DNA of 64,000 nt from Nocardioides alkalitolerans DSM 16699. Lineage in GTDB: Bacteria; Actinomycetota; Actinomycetes; Propionibacteriales; Nocardioidaceae. Where the stretch lies: positions 682,001-746,000 of the forward strand of contig NZ_AUFN01000010.1 in the NCBI RefSeq assembly GCF_000426525.1, written 5' to 3'. Both the position numbers and the translations under genes were made by a program. Below the pieces are notes generated by a model. That model saw only the letters and a list, made by a program, of their open reading frames with translations. It was not told where the DNA came from and did no database searches. Position 1 is the first letter of the stretch. The number at the start of each line of letters is the position of its first letter. Positions 14,583 to 20,123 of the stretch are shown here, piece by piece.

Positions 14583-14620
14583 CGTCCCCAGGCCCCGTGG
14601 CCGGGCCCGGCGTCCCCAGG
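14583..14620 (+). promoter_or_regulatory. 28-bp-spaced direct repeat upstream of M23 peptidase
   Basis: Two identical CGTCCCCAGG boxes whose ends are exactly 28 bp apart, finishing 48 nt before the peptidase start. The same arrangement with one-base variation lies upstream of yifB and yraN (19554-19591 and 20086-20123), always on the strand of the downstream gene. Confidence 0.55.
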
Positions 14621-14668
14621 TCGTGGCCATGCCGCCGCTCCCCCGGTCCGGACCGCCACCGTGGTCCC

Positions 14669-15295
14669 ATGCGACGACCCCTCCTGCTGCTCCTGCTCGT
14701 GCTCGGCCTCGTCGGCCTCGTGCCGACCGTTCCTGCGAGCGCTGCCTCCGCCGACGGCACCTCCGACCCTGTCGGTGTGTGGCCCCTCGATCCCGAGCCC
14801 GAGGTGGTGGCCGGCTTCGACCCGCCCGCCGACCGGTACGGCGCGGGCCACCGCGGGGTCGACCTCGCCGGGGCGGCCGGCCAGGCCGTGCGTACGGCGC
14901 TCCCCGGCGAGGTCACGTTCGCCGGCCGTCTGGCCGGCAAGGGGGTCGTCACCGTCACCCACGGCGACACCCGCACGACGTACGAGCCCGTGACCGCCTC
15001 GGTGACCGTCGGCGAGGCGGTCGGGGCGGGTGACGTGATCGGCACCCTGGAGCCGTTCGCCTCCCACTGCGCGCCCCGCACCTGCCTGCACTGGGGCTGG
15101 CTCCGCGGCGAGGAGTACCTCGATCCGCTTCGTCTCGTCGGCGGCGGTCCGGTGCGGCTCGTGCCACTGGAGGGGTTGCCCGCCGGCGTCGCACGCTCCC
15201 ACCCGTACGCCGCCTGGTCACCGCTCGCGTCGGCCGGCACACCGGGCGCCGCCCTCCTGCGGGCGCTCGACGCCGTCCGTCGGGCCTGGCGCTGA
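14669..15295 (+). CDS. secreted M23-family peptidase
   Basis: 208 aa with a clear signal peptide (RRPLLLLLLVLGLVGLVPTVPASA). The LytM/EnvC fold then shows HRGVDLAGAAGQAVRT, supplying the zinc-ligand His and Asp, and TCLHWGWLRGEEYLDPL, supplying the third zinc ligand His. In the latter the usual HxH is CxH, so the general histidine is replaced by cysteine. A cell-wall peptidoglycan endopeptidase or division/wall-hydrolase activator role is expected outside the membrane. The gene is divergent from rpsB. The ATG at 14669 is chosen because it starts directly at the signal peptide. Confidence 0.87.
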   Translation: MRRPLLLLLLVLGLVGLVPTVPASAASADGTSDPVGVWPLDPEPEVVAGFDPPADRYGAGHRGVDLAGAAGQAVRTALPGEVTFAGRLAGKGVVTVTHGDTRTTYEPVTASVTVGEAVGAGDVIGTLEPFASHCAPRTCLHWGWLRGEEYLDPLRLVGGGPVRLVPLEGLPAGVARSHPYAAWSPLASAGTPGAALLRALDAVRRAWR

Positions 15296-15330
15296 CGGGA
15301 TCGCGTTCCGTGGGGTGCCGTCGCGCGGGT

Positions 15331-15619
15331 GCGGACCAAGGCCCGCGGAAAGTGCAGGGCTGAGTCCGCACCGGCTCGCCCCACTCCGGGCGCGGACCAG
15401 GACCCGCGGAAGATGCAGGGCTGGGTCCGCACCGGCTCGCCCCACTCCGGCCGCGGACCGAGACCCGCGAAAGATGCCGGGCTGAGTCCGCACCGCCTCG
15501 CCCCACTCCGGGCGCGGACCGAGACCCGCGGAAGATGCAGGGCTGAGTCCGCACCGCCTCGCCCCACTCCGGGCGCGGACCAAGACCCGCGGAAGGCGGA
15601 GGGCTGAGTCCGCACCGGA
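15331..15619. repeat. 61-bp tandem repeat array, 4.7 copies
   Basis: Units begin with GCGGACC at 15331, 15392, 15453, 15514 and 15575, an exact 61-bp period. Each contains GCGGAC and, about 28 nt later, GTCCGC, so each unit can fold into a stem-loop. Units are 85-95% identical by eye. The array fills the 333-nt gap between the convergent peptidase and xerC genes. The period is not a multiple of three, so it is not coding. Confidence 0.93.
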
Positions 15620-15628
15620 CGGTGGGGG

Positions 15629-16636
15629 TCAGGCCCGGGGGTGCGCCTGGCGGTAGGCCGAGCGCAGCCGGTCGGTGCTGACGTGCGTGTAGATCTGGGT
15701 GGTCGCGAGCGAGGCGTGCCCGAGGATCTCCTGCACGGTGCGCAGGTCGGCCCCGCCCTCGAGCAGGTGTGTCGCCGCCGTGTGGCGGAGGCCGTGGGGG
15801 GCGAGGTCGGGGGCGTCGGGGACGGCGGCGATCCGGCGGTGGACCATCGTGCGGACGGCGCGCTGGTCGACGCGCCCCCCGCGGGCCCCGAGGAACAGGG
15901 CCGGTCCTGACGTGCCGGTCGCCAGCACGGGGCGGCCCTGGACCCGCCAGACCTCGACGGCACGCGCGGCGGGCCGGCCGTACGGGACCGTCCGCTCCTT
16001 GTTCCCCTTGCCGAGCACCCGGACGACCGAGCGCCCGTGGTCGAGGTCGTCCACGTCGAGGCCGGCCAGCTCCCCCACCCGGATGCCGGTGGCGTAGAGC
16101 AGCTCGAGCACCGCGACGTCGCGCAGCGCGACGGCGGCGGCGACCTCGTCGTCGGCCGCGGCGGCGGTGATCGCGAGCTCGGCCGCGACGTCGAGGAGGC
16201 TGCGGGTCTCGGCCTCGGTGAGCACCGCCGGCAGCGTGCGGTGCGGACGTGGCGAGACCAGGGTGGCGCCCACGTCGACGTCACGCCGGCCCGTGCGCTC
16301 GAGCCAGGCGGTGAAGACCCGGGCCGCGGTGGCCCGGCGCCCCAGCGTGGTGCGGGACCGCCCCGTCGTCTGCTGTCGCGCCAGCCAGCTGCGCAGCGTC
16401 CTGAGGTCGAGGTCGTCGACCGAGGTGGCGCCCATCCGCGAGGCGTGGTCGAGCAGCGAGCGGAGGTCGCCCAGGTAGGCGCGCACGGTGTGGGCGGCCA
16501 GGTCGCGCTCGTGGCGGAGGTGGCGCTCGTACGACGCGAGCTCCGCCTCGAGGCGCTCGGGCAGACCCTCCTGCTCGGCCTCCTGCTCGGGGCCGGAGCC
16601 GTCCCCGGGCTCGGGCGTCGGCGGGCTCGCGGTCAT
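15629..16636 (-). CDS. xerC: tyrosine recombinase XerC
   Basis: 335 aa; it acts with XerD at dif to resolve chromosome dimers. The N-terminal SAM-like core-binding domain covers residues 30-115. The catalytic domain shows the active-site set Arg in [11 protein letters not shown], Lys in [11 protein letters not shown], HxxR in [12 protein letters not shown], His in [10 protein letters not shown] and Tyr in IYTHVS. It is about 35 residues longer than the usual 300 because of an acidic N-terminus. A TAGACT box 6 nt before the ATG suggests a leaderless message. It lies next to dprA as in other Actinobacteria, so it is a housekeeping recombinase rather than a phage integrase. Confidence 0.94.
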
Positions 16637-16642
16637 CCCCCG

Positions 16643-16648
16643 AGTCTA
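16643..16648 (-). promoter_or_regulatory. -10 box, leaderless xerC
   Basis: TAGACT, an excellent actinobacterial -10, ends 6 nt before the xerC ATG, so transcription would begin at or next to the start codon. There is no Shine-Dalgarno sequence. Confidence 0.6.
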
Positions 16649-16729
16649 GGAACCGCGCGACCCGTCGGCGCGAGGCTCGACGGGCCGCACGGCACGGATG
16701 TGGGCCGTCCGGGACCGCGCCGTCGGCGG

Positions 16730-17866
16730 TCAGAGCCTCCCCTGCTCGGAGAGCCGCCACCCCGGGCCGGTCTGCTCGACGAGACCGACGCGGTAGAGCT
16801 CGTGGACGTCGCGACGGGTCGCGTCCACGCCGAGCCCGGCCGTCCGGGCGATCGCGGCGATCGGGGCCCCGCTCACGACTGGTACCGCGTCCAGCACCTG
16901 CCGCTGGCGGGGCGTGAGGGCGTCCCGCGGCTGCGGTCGCTCCCGGAGGGGCTCGAGCAGTCCGACGCCCGCCGCGCCGACGACCTCGAGCACGTCCGCG
17001 CCGCGGGTGACCAGCAGACCGGACCGTGCGCGGATGAGCTCGTGGACACCCTGCGAGAGGCCGCTCGTCACCGGACCGGGCACCCCCATCACCTGCCGGT
17101 GGAGCCGGTCGGCCCAGCCGGCGGTGTTGAGCGAGCCGCTGCGGACCGCCGCCTCGACGACCACGGTGCCCCGGGTGAGGGCGGCGATGAGCCGGTTGCG
17201 GGCGAGGAACCGCACCCGCATCGGAGCGGAGCCGACCGGCGCCTCGGAGACGATCGCGCCACGCTCGGCGATGAGGGCCAGCAGGGGCGCGTGCTTCACG
17301 GGGTAGGCGCGTTCGACCCCGCACGCCATCACCGCGACCGTCGGCCCCGTGACCGCGAGCGCGCCCCGGTGGGCCGCCTGGTCGATGCCGAAGGCCGCGC
17401 CCGAGACCACGGTCCAGTCGTGCCGGCCCGCGTGGGCGGCCATCTCCCCGGCGACCTGCTCGCCGTACGTCGTGGCCGCCCGCGACCCGACGATCGCGAC
17501 CGAGCGTGCGACCTCGTCGAGCCGCAGCGGTCCCCGCACCCAGAGCCCGACGGGCACCTCGCCGCGTTCCTGCGCCGGCTCGGCGTCGGCGAGGTCGTCG
17601 AGCTGTGTCGGCCACTCCGCGTCCCCGGGCACGACGAAGCGCACCCCCAGACGGGTCGCCTCGTCGAGGCGGCGCTCGGGCTCGAGGAGGACCAGACGTT
17701 CGGCGACCTCGCTGCGGCTGCCGTCGAGCTCGCGCTCGGCGAGCAGGGCGTCGTACACCTTCTCGGGACCGAGGGTGCGGGCGAGACGCAGGAGGCGCAC
17801 GTCGCCCGGCTCGGCCAGGTGGCTCAGCGCCACCCGGGCCAGGCGCTCGCGTGGAGTGACGCTCAT
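16730..17866 (-). CDS. dprA: DNA-processing protein DprA
   Basis: 378 aa; it binds incoming single-stranded DNA and loads RecA during natural transformation. The Rossmann-like core shows VAIVGSRAATTYGEQVAGE, VVSGAAFGIDQAAHRGAL, ACGVERAYPVKHAPL, EAPVGSAPMRVRFLARNRLI and VVEAAVRSGSLNTAGWA. The C-terminal winged-helix domain (LTPRQRQVLDAV...) is present, as in full-length DprA. The ATG at 17866 overlaps the yifB stop by 4 nt (ATGA), so the two are co-translated. Presence in a chromosome does not prove competence. Confidence 0.95.
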   Translation of the reverse strand: MSVTPRERLARVALSHLAEPGDVRLLRLARTLGPEKVYDALLAERELDGSRSEVAERLVLLEPERRLDEATRLGVRFVVPGDAEWPTQLDDLADAEPAQERGEVPVGLWVRGPLRLDEVARSVAIVGSRAATTYGEQVAGEMAAHAGRHDWTVVSGAAFGIDQAAHRGALAVTGPTVAVMACGVERAYPVKHAPLLALIAERGAIVSEAPVGSAPMRVRFLARNRLIAALTRGTVVVEAAVRSGSLNTAGWADRLHRQVMGVPGPVTSGLSQGVHELIRARSGLLVTRGADVLEVVGAAGVGLLEPLRERPQPRDALTPRQRQVLDAVPVVSGAPIAAIARTAGLGVDATRRDVHELYRVGLVEQTGPGWRLSEQGRL

Positions 17867-19458
17867 CCGGCACGCTCCAGCGCGCGGAGGGGCAGCGGGT
17901 CGCCGCGGCGCAGCGCCAGCGCGACGTCGAGGTCGCGGTCGGCGGGCGCCGCGCGGCCCGCGAGGTCGGTGATCGTCCACGCGAGGCGGTGGACCCGGGT
18001 CGCGCCGCGTCGGGTCAGACGGCCCTGGCGGACCTCGGTGTCGAGGCGCGCCTGGGAGTCCGCGCCCAGCGGCCAGGACTCCCGCAGCGCCTGGGCCGGG
18101 GCGTGGGCGTTGAGGCGCCAGCTGAGCCCCGCGTAGCGCTGCGCCTGGCGCTGACGGGCCGCCGTCACCCGCTCCCGGACGGCGGCGGTCGTCTCTCGCG
18201 GGGCCAGCTCGTCACCGTTCTGCCAGCCGTCGGCAGAGCTCAGCCGACGCTCGATGTCGACCCGGTCGGCGAGCGGGCCCCGGAGCTTGCGCTGGTAGCG
18301 CCGCATCGCCGGCGGCTCGCAGTTGCAGTGCGAGAGCGCCGCGTCGTCGCCCGCATCACCGCACGGGCACGGGTTGGCGGCAAGCACCACCATGCCGCGG
18401 GCCGGGAACGTCGCCGACTCCTCACCACGCGCGATGGTGACCTCGCCGCTCTCGAGCGGCTGCCGGAGCGCCTCCACGACGTCGATGGAGAAGAGCGGGA
18501 ACTCGTCGAGGAAGAGCACCCCGGCGTGGGCCCGGCTGATCTCGCCGGGCCGCACCCGGCCGGTGCCGCCGCCGAGGAGGCTCGTGGCGCTCGCGTTGTG
18601 GTGGGGCGCGAAGTACGGCGGGCGCCGGAACAGCCCGCCCTCCGGAGGCAGGGCACCGGCCAGCGAGTGGATCGCCGTGAGCTCGAGCGCCTCCTCGGGG
18701 TCGAGGTCGGGCAGGATGCCCGGGATGCGCTCGGCGAGCGACGTCTTGCCCGCTCCCTTGGGTCCGGTCAGCAGCATGTGGTGGCCGCCCGCCGCGGCGA
18801 CCTCGGCGGCGTACAGCGCGTCGGGGATGCCGACGAGGTCGGCCATGTCGCCCTCCTCGATGCGATGCTGACCGCGCCACGACAGCAGTCGGCTGCCGGA
18901 GTCGGCCGGCACCGGCGGGGCCTCGGGCACCTCGACACCGCGCAGCTCGGCCACGACCTGCGCCAGGGAGCGCATCCCGAAGACCGCCATGCCCGGCACG
19001 AGCGCGGCCTCGGCGGCCTGCGGCTCCGGGACGAACACGCGGCGCACGCCGCGGCTCGCCGCCGCCATCACCATCGGCAGCACGCCGGGCACCGGGCGCA
19101 GCTGGCCCTCGAGGGTCAGCTCGCCGATGAAGACCGCGTCGGTCGTCGGGATCGGCAGGTCCCGGTCGCGGTCGACCGAGGCCGCCAGGACGCCGACAGC
19201 GATAGCGAGGTCGAAGTGGGTGCCGCGCTTCGGCAGGTCGGCGGGTGACAGCAGGATCGTCGTGCGCCTCGTCGTCGGCCACTGGAAGCCCGAGTTGCTG
19301 ATCGCCATGCGGCAGCGGTCCCGGGCCTCGCTGAGGGCCGCGTCCGGGCGGCCGACCATGATCGTGGTGACCATTCCCGGCGAGACGTCGACCTGGATGT
19401 CGATGAGGTGGCCGATCGCGCCCTGGAGGGCGATCGTGCGGGTGGTGGCGACGGGCAT
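17863..19458 (-). CDS. YifB/ComM-family AAA+ ATPase
   Basis: 531 aa Mg-chelatase-like protein. In other bacteria ComM is a helicase aiding branch migration during transformation. The N-terminal Lon-protease-like domain (ATTRTIALQGAIGHLIDIQV) is followed by Walker A GPKGAGKTSLAERIPGILP, Walker B GVLFLDEFPLF, the NPCPCG cysteine cluster and the C-terminal helix RGATRVHRLAWTITDLAG. The ATG at 19458 places the conserved first strand at residue 5. The bipartite CGTCC-type repeat lies 95 nt upstream. It forms an operon with dprA. Confidence 0.94.
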   Translation of the reverse strand: MPVATTRTIALQGAIGHLIDIQVDVSPGMVTTIMVGRPDAALSEARDRCRMAISNSGFQWPTTRRTTILLSPADLPKRGTHFDLAIAVGVLAASVDRDRDLPIPTTDAVFIGELTLEGQLRPVPGVLPMVMAAASRGVRRVFVPEPQAAEAALVPGMAVFGMRSLAQVVAELRGVEVPEAPPVPADSGSRLLSWRGQHRIEEGDMADLVGIPDALYAAEVAAAGGHHMLLTGPKGAGKTSLAERIPGILPDLDPEEALELTAIHSLAGALPPEGGLFRRPPYFAPHHNASATSLLGGGTGRVRPGEISRAHAGVLFLDEFPLFSIDVVEALRQPLESGEVTIARGEESATFPARGMVVLAANPCPCGDAGDDAALSHCNCEPPAMRRYQRKLRGPLADRVDIERRLSSADGWQNGDELAPRETTAAVRERVTAARQRQAQRYAGLSWRLNAHAPAQALRESWPLGADSQARLDTEVRQGRLTRRGATRVHRLAWTITDLAGRAAPADRDLDVALALRRGDPLPLRALERAG

Positions 19459-19553
19459 CAGGCGGCCCTCGGTCCGGGCGTGGGTGTCATGGCGGTACCT
19501 CCTGCGTCCGATCCTCGATCGGGAGCAGGGGCTCGCAGGGCCGGTCGTCGACG

Positions 19554-19591
19554 CCTGTGGAGGCAGCACCCGCTCCGTGCGCCTGGGGACG
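19554..19591 (-). promoter_or_regulatory. 28-bp-spaced direct repeat upstream of yifB-dprA
   Basis: On the minus strand CGTCCCCAGG and then CCTCCACAGG, ends exactly 28 bp apart, finishing 95 nt before the yifB start. Together with the copies at 14583 and 20086 it defines CGTCC(C/A)CAGG-N18-C(G/C)TCC(C/A)CAGG. Confidence 0.55.
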
Positions 19592-19625
19592 GAACCCGGC
19601 GCGCGACGCGCGTCGGACGAGACGC

Positions 19626-20024
19626 TCAGCCCAGGCCGCGGACGTGCTCGATCGTGGCGGCGCCGGTGCGGGGCCGCACGATCCCGACCATGTCGATCCG
19701 GACGTCGGGCGGGTGCACGCCGCGCTCCGCCATCCAGCGCGCACCGAGCCGCCGCAACCGCTGCAGCTTCACCGGGGTGACGGCGGCGAGGGGCTCGCCG
19801 TACGCCGTGGAGGTGCGCGTCTTGACCTCGCAGATCACGAGCACGCGGCCCTCGCGCAGCACGAGGTCGATCTCGCCGGCGTCGCAGCGCCAGTTCTGGT
19901 CGAGCAGCACCAGTCCGGCGGCCGTCAGGTGGCGGACGGCGAGCTGCTCGCCGTACCGGCCGAGGCCTCGTCGGTCGTCGGCGCGGGCGCCGGCGGGGTC
20001 ATCGGTGCGGATGGGGTCGGTCAT
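19626..20024 (-). CDS. YraN (UPF0102) endonuclease-like protein
   Basis: 132 aa with the restriction-endonuclease-like core GRYGEQLAVRHL, NWRCDAGEIDLVLREG and VICEVKTRTST; the acidic and lysine residues of the D-(E/Q)xK nuclease motif are present. The biological role of the family is unsettled; linkage to DNA processing genes is widely conserved. The ATG at 20024 is chosen over the GTG at 20030 because GGAGG lies 7 nt before it. It carries its own copy of the bipartite repeat 61 nt upstream. Confidence 0.9.
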   Translation of the reverse strand: MTDPIRTDDPAGARADDRRGLGRYGEQLAVRHLTAAGLVLLDQNWRCDAGEIDLVLREGRVLVICEVKTRTSTAYGEPLAAVTPVKLQRLRRLGARWMAERGVHPPDVRIDMVGIVRPRTGAATIEHVRGLG

Positions 20025-20060
20025 GGGCACACCTCCGTCGCCCAGGGTGGGTGGTGCCAG

Positions 20061-20076
20061 CGGCCCCGTGGGGCCG
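20061..20076 (-). terminator. hairpin between tadG-like gene and yraN
   Basis: CGGCCCC-GT-GGGGCCG, a 7-bp stem in the 126-nt gap after the TadG-like gene. It lies just outside the bipartite repeat of yraN. It could end the Tad transcript. No T-run is seen. Confidence 0.4.
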
Positions 20077-20085
20077 TCGGCCGGA

Positions 20086-20123
20086 CCTGTGGACGGCGCC
20101 GCTCGGCAGGGCGCCTGGGGACG
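20086..20123 (-). promoter_or_regulatory. 28-bp-spaced direct repeat upstream of yraN
   Basis: On the minus strand CGTCCCCAGG and CGTCCACAGG with ends exactly 28 bp apart, finishing 61 nt before the yraN ATG. It shares box sequence, spacing and orientation with the copies upstream of yifB and the M23 peptidase. Confidence 0.55.

Follow-up and report, generated by a model that had tools for sequence, protein, structure and literature searches.

A same-strand box pair as a putative operator of natural competence in Nocardioides and other Actinomycetes

The competence operators of Bacillota and Gammaproteobacteria include the ComK boxes, the SigX/ComX cin-box and the CRP-S sites. We know of no control switch for natural transformation in the phylum Actinomycetota. 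Here we describe a direct repeat, located upstream of genes for an M23 peptidase, YifB-DprA and YraN in a 64,000-nt window of the Nocardioides alkalitolerans DSM 16699 genome (G000:C2:682001-746000, where G000 denotes the 4.85-Mb genome). Like those operators, it is a single cis-element that appears to coordinate comEA/EC, pilus, dprA, ssb and recA genes scattered over the chromosome. It differs from them in its sequence, in its form as a same-strand direct repeat with a lineage-dependent gap of 19 to 22 nt, and in its location upstream of TAnnnT promoters that are often putatively leaderless. From the portions of the reports available, Micrococcus luteus is without homologs of the ComK cascade and requires Flp/Tad pili and ComEA/EC for transformation (PMC4322843), the same machinery that recurs among the targets of the repeat, and its comEA/EC promoter is regulated (PMC8467076, PMC12849477). 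The available text of a mutant screen on comEA/EC expression in this species names no operator (PMC8467076), and that of a 2026 paper leaves the upstream signals and the regulatory cascade to be identified and likewise names none (PMC12849477). Neither an operator nor a regulator binding site is given in the corresponding parts of these two reports or of PMC4322843. Literature searches that did not extend to preprints or to the majority of subscription papers turned up no account of such an element.

Judged by sequence comparison, the repeat is genuine, conserved and new in both sequence and architecture, and we put the probability that it is the operator of a regulon of natural competence (DNA uptake plus recombination) in Nocardioides and other Actinomycetes at roughly 0.8. 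The presumptive regulon comprises comEA-comEC, tadZ and the flp pilin gene, yraN-comM(yifB)-dprA, two types of single-stranded DNA-binding protein (SSB), recA, recQ, and genes of the M23, DUF4192, DUF559 and HNH families; the same element thus precedes several unlinked uptake and recombination genes. An operator common to several families would point to a shared control switch for natural transformation and provide a handle with which to pull out its regulator. It would also predict which species are possibly transformable, assign unstudied families (DUF4192, DUF559/AbiEi-like, DUF222-HNH and small secreted proteins) to the transformation pathway, and might help to open to genetic work those soil bacteria that cannot at present be manipulated.

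Three box pairs occur in the window, and the copies are termed com box 1 (upstream) and com box 2 (downstream). On the forward strand, box 1 (14583..14592) and box 2 (14611..14620, 28 bp after box 1), both CGTCCCCAGG, precede the M23 peptidase gene (14669..15295, PF01551, E-value 1.2e-12), whose start codon lies 48 nt past the end of box 2, the typical distance of the putative leaderless promoters described below. The other two pairs and the genes behind them are on the reverse strand. Box 1 at 20114..20123 (CGTCCCCAGG) and box 2 at 20086..20095 (CGTCCACAGG) precede yraN (UPF0102; 19626..20024, PF02021, E-value 6.9e-25), with 61 nt between the end of box 2 and the start codon of the gene. Following yraN in the window are yifB and dprA, which have a pair of their own with box 1 at 19582..19591 (CGTCCCCAGG) and box 2 at 19554..19563 (CCTCCACAGG). 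Here, 95 nt separate the end of box 2 from the start codon of yifB, a comM-like gene for a Mg-chelatase-type AAA+ ATPase (17863..19458; PF01078, E-value 6.2e-74, with PF13541 and PF13335), and a 10-codon open reading frame (ORF) that begins 63 nt past box 2 shares the sequence TGATG with the start of yifB. The end of yifB overlaps the start of dprA (16730..17866, PF02481, E-value 6.6e-62) as ATGA. The preliminary description of these sites was exact in their coordinates and strands, in the 28-bp register, which every one of them keeps, and in placing them 48-95 nt before the next gene. Its shared box, CGTCCMCAGG, has to be shortened: the downstream box at 19554 reads CCTCCACAGG, so the common core is only TCCMCAGG. 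The core element is therefore TCCMCAGG-N20-TCCMCAGG.

Searches of the whole G000 genome show that the spaced pair is commoner than chance would give. The full 38-mer occurs at 6 places exactly and at 11 with up to two mismatches, vs none for the reversed control. When two exact cores were allowed any gap from 5 to 35, ten places were returned, eight of them with a gap of exactly 20 (P ~1e-14 when the remaining 30 gaps set the background rate), and again none with the reversed control. The genes behind these eight places are a tadZ/cpaE-like gene (L001, named by eye, with only a weak CbiA match at E-value 7.5e-4), the M23 peptidase gene (L002), yifB-dprA (L003), yraN (L004), a gene for a small putative secreted protein without a Pfam match (L005), a DUF4192 gene (L006, E-value 7.1e-55), a gene for an EVE-like protein below the Pfam cut-off (L007) and recA (L017, E-value 4.8e-142). 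A pair with two mismatches precedes the Flp pilin gene of the tad locus (L008). These targets support the earlier suggestion of a common regulator of DNA uptake, which would act on tadZ, the flp pilin gene, recA, DUF4192, M23, yraN and yifB-dprA alike. The DUF4192 genes that carry a box pair in G000, G001 and G277 (L006, L231 and L233) are divergent to a gene resembling dinB (DNA polymerase IV).

Within the genus, at least one pair at some gap is present in 144 of 147 genomes. Gap and target counts rest on the 150 pairs listed (the total being at least 150), which come from 28 of the 147 genomes, and 99 of these have a gap of 19-21. The gap is mostly constant per genome: 19 in G102 (7 of 8) and G067 (6 of 11), 20 in G001 (8 of 9) and G095 (6 of 9), and 21 in G039 (7 of 10). 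The 91 listed sites of gap 19-21 outside G000 were all fetched and combined with the eight of G000. An ATG or GTG ORF follows 98 of these 99 sites, and the remaining one (L130) leads into a Flp-pilin-like ORF with a TTG start. The site-ORFs were grouped in BLAST clusters with Pfam run on representatives, while tadZ, tadE, yifB and yraN were named by eye. Among the 98 are DUF559/AbiEi-like (12), DUF222-HNH-like (10, of which 6 are related paralogs in G039), SSB (9), a second SSB type (5), M23 (7), DUF4192 (7), TadZ, YraN, YifB and ComEA (5 each, four of the YifB called behind a yraN), Flp pilin (DUF4244; 4), a TadE-like frame behind flp (2) and RecA (3), together with unknown families of 3, 2 and 2 members and 12 singletons that include RecQ (L121).

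Promoters picked by protein similarity alone, without regard to the motif, confirm the association. For yraN, the best 80 of 593 confirmed YraN matches in named genomes were taken, and a pair was accepted with up to two mismatches over both cores at gaps of 18-22, with six control gap windows. Within these 80, a pair is present in 20 of 26 promoters from Nocardioides or other Nocardioidaceae (control mean 2.2), in 7 of 17 from other actinobacteria (control 0.8), e.g. Kineococcus, Pedococcus and a Sporichthyaceae metagenome-assembled genome, and in only 3 of 37 from Streptomyces (control 0.5). For comEA, 29 of 30 Nocardioides loci chosen by ComEA similarity only were usable, L444 being too short, and 23 of the 29 have a pair vs 1.8 in the control. 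If the best pair of each comEA promoter is taken, poor ones included, an in-frame start lies 49-51 nt past box 2 in 27 of 29, and cTAnnnT is found ahead of the start in 27 of 29, in 17 of them as cTAGCGT. The pair is thus conserved at orthologous promoters independently of the motif search. The preliminary description had asked about enrichment ahead of comEA/EC, tad and cell-wall genes, and about conservation before yifB in related genomes; both are seen, the former by tadZ, the flp pilin gene and M23 in G000 and by comEA in the genus, and the latter by yraN, the gene that yifB-dprA follow in the window.

The 99 genus sites and 39 from outside the genus, 138 in all, show a preferred promoter geometry. 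Counted from the end of box 2, 65 of the 138 have an ATG at +48 to +52, compared with about one per position elsewhere, and a smaller ATG peak at +91 accounts for nine. The motif TAnnnT is found at +36 to +39 in 25 promoters (0.04 per position expected from upstream controls), and TGTCRG, which we take to be the PafBC-specific motif sequence, at +20 to +23 in 30 (0.075 per position expected from the same controls); 11 promoters have both. The 30 with TGTCRG include all seven recA promoters, nine from the related G001 and G127, seven from G039 (six of them paralogs) and seven others. The distance from box 2 to the ATG is nearly constant while the gap between the boxes varies from 19 to 22, which argues that the promoter fixes the position of box 2, and box 2 that of box 1. 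Given the preferred ATG position and the fixed register of TAnnnT, many of the box promoters are probably leaderless, with transcription starting, and ribosomes initiating, at the start codon itself.

One mechanism would account for this geometry. A sequence-specific activator would bind both boxes side by side, centered at about -54 and about -82 from the transcription start, and would recruit RNA polymerase with the ordinary sigma-A to a promoter whose TAnnnT lies 36-39 nt past box 2. Transcription would then start near +50, in about half of the cases yielding a leaderless mRNA that begins at AUG. With a start at about +50, the TGTCRG of the seven recA promoters and of some lineages would fall exactly at the position of the PafBC -26 element. 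This element is contacted by the helix-turn-helix of PafB, and PafBC is activated by single-stranded DNA, according to the available part of PMC11804915. Since PafBC is reportedly activated in this way, incoming DNA could reinforce recA and, in the TGTCRG lineages, further members of the regulon.

The element is also found beyond the genus. At the level of the order, a pair at gaps of 18-22 is present in 100 of 196 genomes, and at that of the class in 149 of 393, many of the latter being single matches near the control level. In one family of the order, with genomes of 7.4-9.7 Mb (f3), single matches occur in 7 of 38 genomes; in the class, some members of families f16, f31, f36, f41 and f43 have at least three matches with a control of 0 or 1. 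The 39 outside sites come from ten genomes, which belong to families f4, f36 and f43 or, within the family of the window, to one further genus, and their genes were named by eye, without Pfam. They include yraN (L255, L264, L279 and, with yifB, L268), comEA (L250, L262, L278), SSB (L242, L244, L257, L260) and the second SSB (L252, L265), recA (L258, L266, L274, L276), recQ (L251), tadZ (L253 and possibly L270), DUF4192 (L267, L275), DUF559/AbiEi-like genes (L254, L269, L277) and a ComF-like gene (L261). Similar sites, with gaps of up to 22, thus stand before uptake-type genes in other families of the class. The remaining sites precede genes without a recognizable identity, and some of these sites, e.g. 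L271 and L273, are probably chance matches.

Several observations weigh against an operator of competence genes as just described. Taken singly, the boxes show no enrichment in the window, with 18 matches at up to one mismatch vs 24.8 expected. Both TAnnnT and TGTCRG are missing from their register in the window's three promoters, of which two (yraN and yifB) lie beyond the leaderless distance. The comEA pair of G000 itself is degenerate, with three mismatches and a gap of 19, its start lying exactly 50 nt past box 2. At up to two mismatches, no pair is found in 6 of the 26 yraN and 6 of the 29 comEA promoters, and TGTCRG is in register in just 1 of the 29 comEA promoters. Gaps are mixed in some genomes, such as G014 and G021 (19, 20 and 21) and also G005. 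The conservation of the core among the 99 sites is circular, since the pattern itself found them, and the targets are not uniformly those of competence: 18 of the 98 site-ORFs are in families of other or unknown function, a further set of families without a known competence role (DUF4192, DUF559-like and HNH-like) supplies 29, and the six HNH sites are paralogs of the single genome G039. In family f4, SSB is the sole recognizable target, at two of nine sites.

Other origins of the pair have to be weighed against these results. That it arose as a repeat by chance, or was copied before genes as part of a mobile or duplicated block, is scarcely credible: similar copies do stand before the six related HNH-type genes of G039, but the gap sequences differ apart from such paralogs, as the preliminary description had noted for the window, where it saw no single duplicated block. 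Controls with the reversed pattern gave far fewer matches, different genera and families keep the spacing, the position and the orthologous targets, and a pair was present upstream of orthologs in relatives when these were checked. The random positions, loss of the 28-bp spacing and lack of conservation that would have refuted the earlier suggestion of a common regulator were not seen. A pair that merely extends a PafBC DNA-damage promoter, making this a DNA-damage rather than a competence regulon, is favored by TGTCRG, which lies exactly in place in 30 of the 138 promoters, including all seven recA from two families, about 10 bp before the -10 position as in PafBC (RecA-NDp) promoters. However, it is absent at +20 to +23 from the other 108 and from 28 of the 29 similarity-chosen comEA promoters; comEA, tadZ, the flp pilin gene and M23 are not repair genes, and few Streptomyces yraN promoters among the best 80 of 593 matches have the pair. 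The combination TGTCRG-N10-TAnnnT does not occur at the window's three sites. To our knowledge, neither an upstream box pair nor competence targets are part of the described PafBC motif, and we consider this explanation very improbable.

The reader of the pair could also be DnaA itself, binding same-strand DnaA boxes (TTNTCCACAGG) as a transcription factor and tying the competence genes to replication status. The DnaA box consensus is TTRTCCACA, and the box 2 consensus TTNTCCACAGG, with T at 66% and T at 53% in its first two positions, matches it. The com boxes differ from ordinary DnaA boxes in being paired on the same strand at a single promoter position; the TT directly before the core is missing from box 1, and oriC and com boxes do not consistently co-vary. 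The dnaA gene is the sole PF08299 gene in 24 of 24 genomes checked, extra copies occurring in 10 of 60 genomes of wider sets. In the dnaA-dnaN region of G000, 5 of 7 A/C-type boxes read TCCCCA, and C is likewise present in 12 of the 16 com boxes of this genome. Over 22 genomes (of 37, those with fewer than four com boxes or fewer than three A/C-type oriC boxes having been dropped), the three that are C-richest in com boxes (G000, G333 and G219) are also the three C-richest in oriC, and the C contents correlate with a Pearson coefficient of 0.63 (one-sided permutation p 0.004), but the Spearman coefficient is 0.16 and not significant, G277 and G088 combine a C-rich oriC with A-type com boxes, and base composition could drive the C content of both. 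Moreover, YANNKIN replaces Y/H/N-A-[DE]-[RK] after DHTTVM only in G000, G108 and G120 among 66 DnaA sequences, and these three also have the most CC-type pairs among 147 genomes; since their best ComEA matches suggest that they are probably one clade and hence a single event, this agreement counts as one coincidence. A prediction written beforehand for G120 and G108, which share many CC-type pairs, was that their oriC boxes would be of C type. It failed: C stands in 2 of the 7 boxes of G120 and in 3 of the 7 of G108, and the pooled 5 of 14 do not differ significantly from the 22 of 89 counted over 13 genomes of the A type (p 0.5). That count is confined to genomes with a recognizable dnaA-dnaN intergenic region (13 of 22 A-type controls, both predicted C-type genomes and G000), and G352 and G591 were left out of the oriC comparison since dnaN is not behind dnaA in the stretch examined. 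Because the prediction failed, DnaA is kept as a rival, and a rather unlikely one, and not as the answer. If it were the reader, DnaA of the G000 (YANNKIN) type should prefer TCCCCAGG and that of the G001 type TCCACAGG. An extended and more speculative proposal, that DnaA or a protein of like specificity switches on competence in many Actinomycetes through the same-strand DnaA-like pair, with PafBC activated by single-stranded DNA as a second input on recA and on some lineages' promoters, seems to us improbable; it would couple competence both to the state of replication and to DNA that is incoming or damaged, with none of the known competence master regulators involved.

Two further sources of a regulator for the competence operator were considered and set aside. 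A DnaA-domain paralog is not a conserved reader: extra, often tandem, PF08299 domains occur in only the 10 of 60 genomes mentioned, and six such regions from five genomes have, by eye, plasmid or integrative-element surroundings. Three of the extra genes (L310, L311 and L313) are ORFs of about 310-340 residues with two DnaA domain-IV (PF08299) repeats, L315 has one, and all stand next to plasmid-like or integrative-element-like genes. A regulator encoded beside the com or tad genes is likewise unsupported, as no recurring transcription factor was seen by eye in 20 loci of G000, G001 and G277; two response regulators lie near G000 sites.

The survey yielded several minor observations. Many DUF559/AbiEi-like genes, which encode a predicted nuclease, carry a box promoter, in most cases with the spacing of the leaderless class (L083, L095-L097, L114, L133, L134, L143, L146, L155, L158, L254, L269 and L277), which suggests that this family, regarded as one of toxin-antitoxin or restriction-like genes, has its place in DNA uptake. 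The six related HNH-type ORFs of G039 (L113, L115 and L117-L120; 446-582 residues) each have their own gap-21 pair. A second, smaller peak is seen at gap 13 (15 of the 150 listed pairs, from 13 genomes); behind the three pairs inspected (L054, L067 and L069) are a parA-like gene, an ORF near rpmH and an nrdR-like gene, and this group was set aside as another class. Finally, between the M23 gene of the window and the next gene (15299-15617) lie, by eye, about five tandem copies of a GC-rich unit of about 60 bp that reads GCGGACC..GACCCGCGGAAG..GCAGGGCTG.GTCCGCACC.

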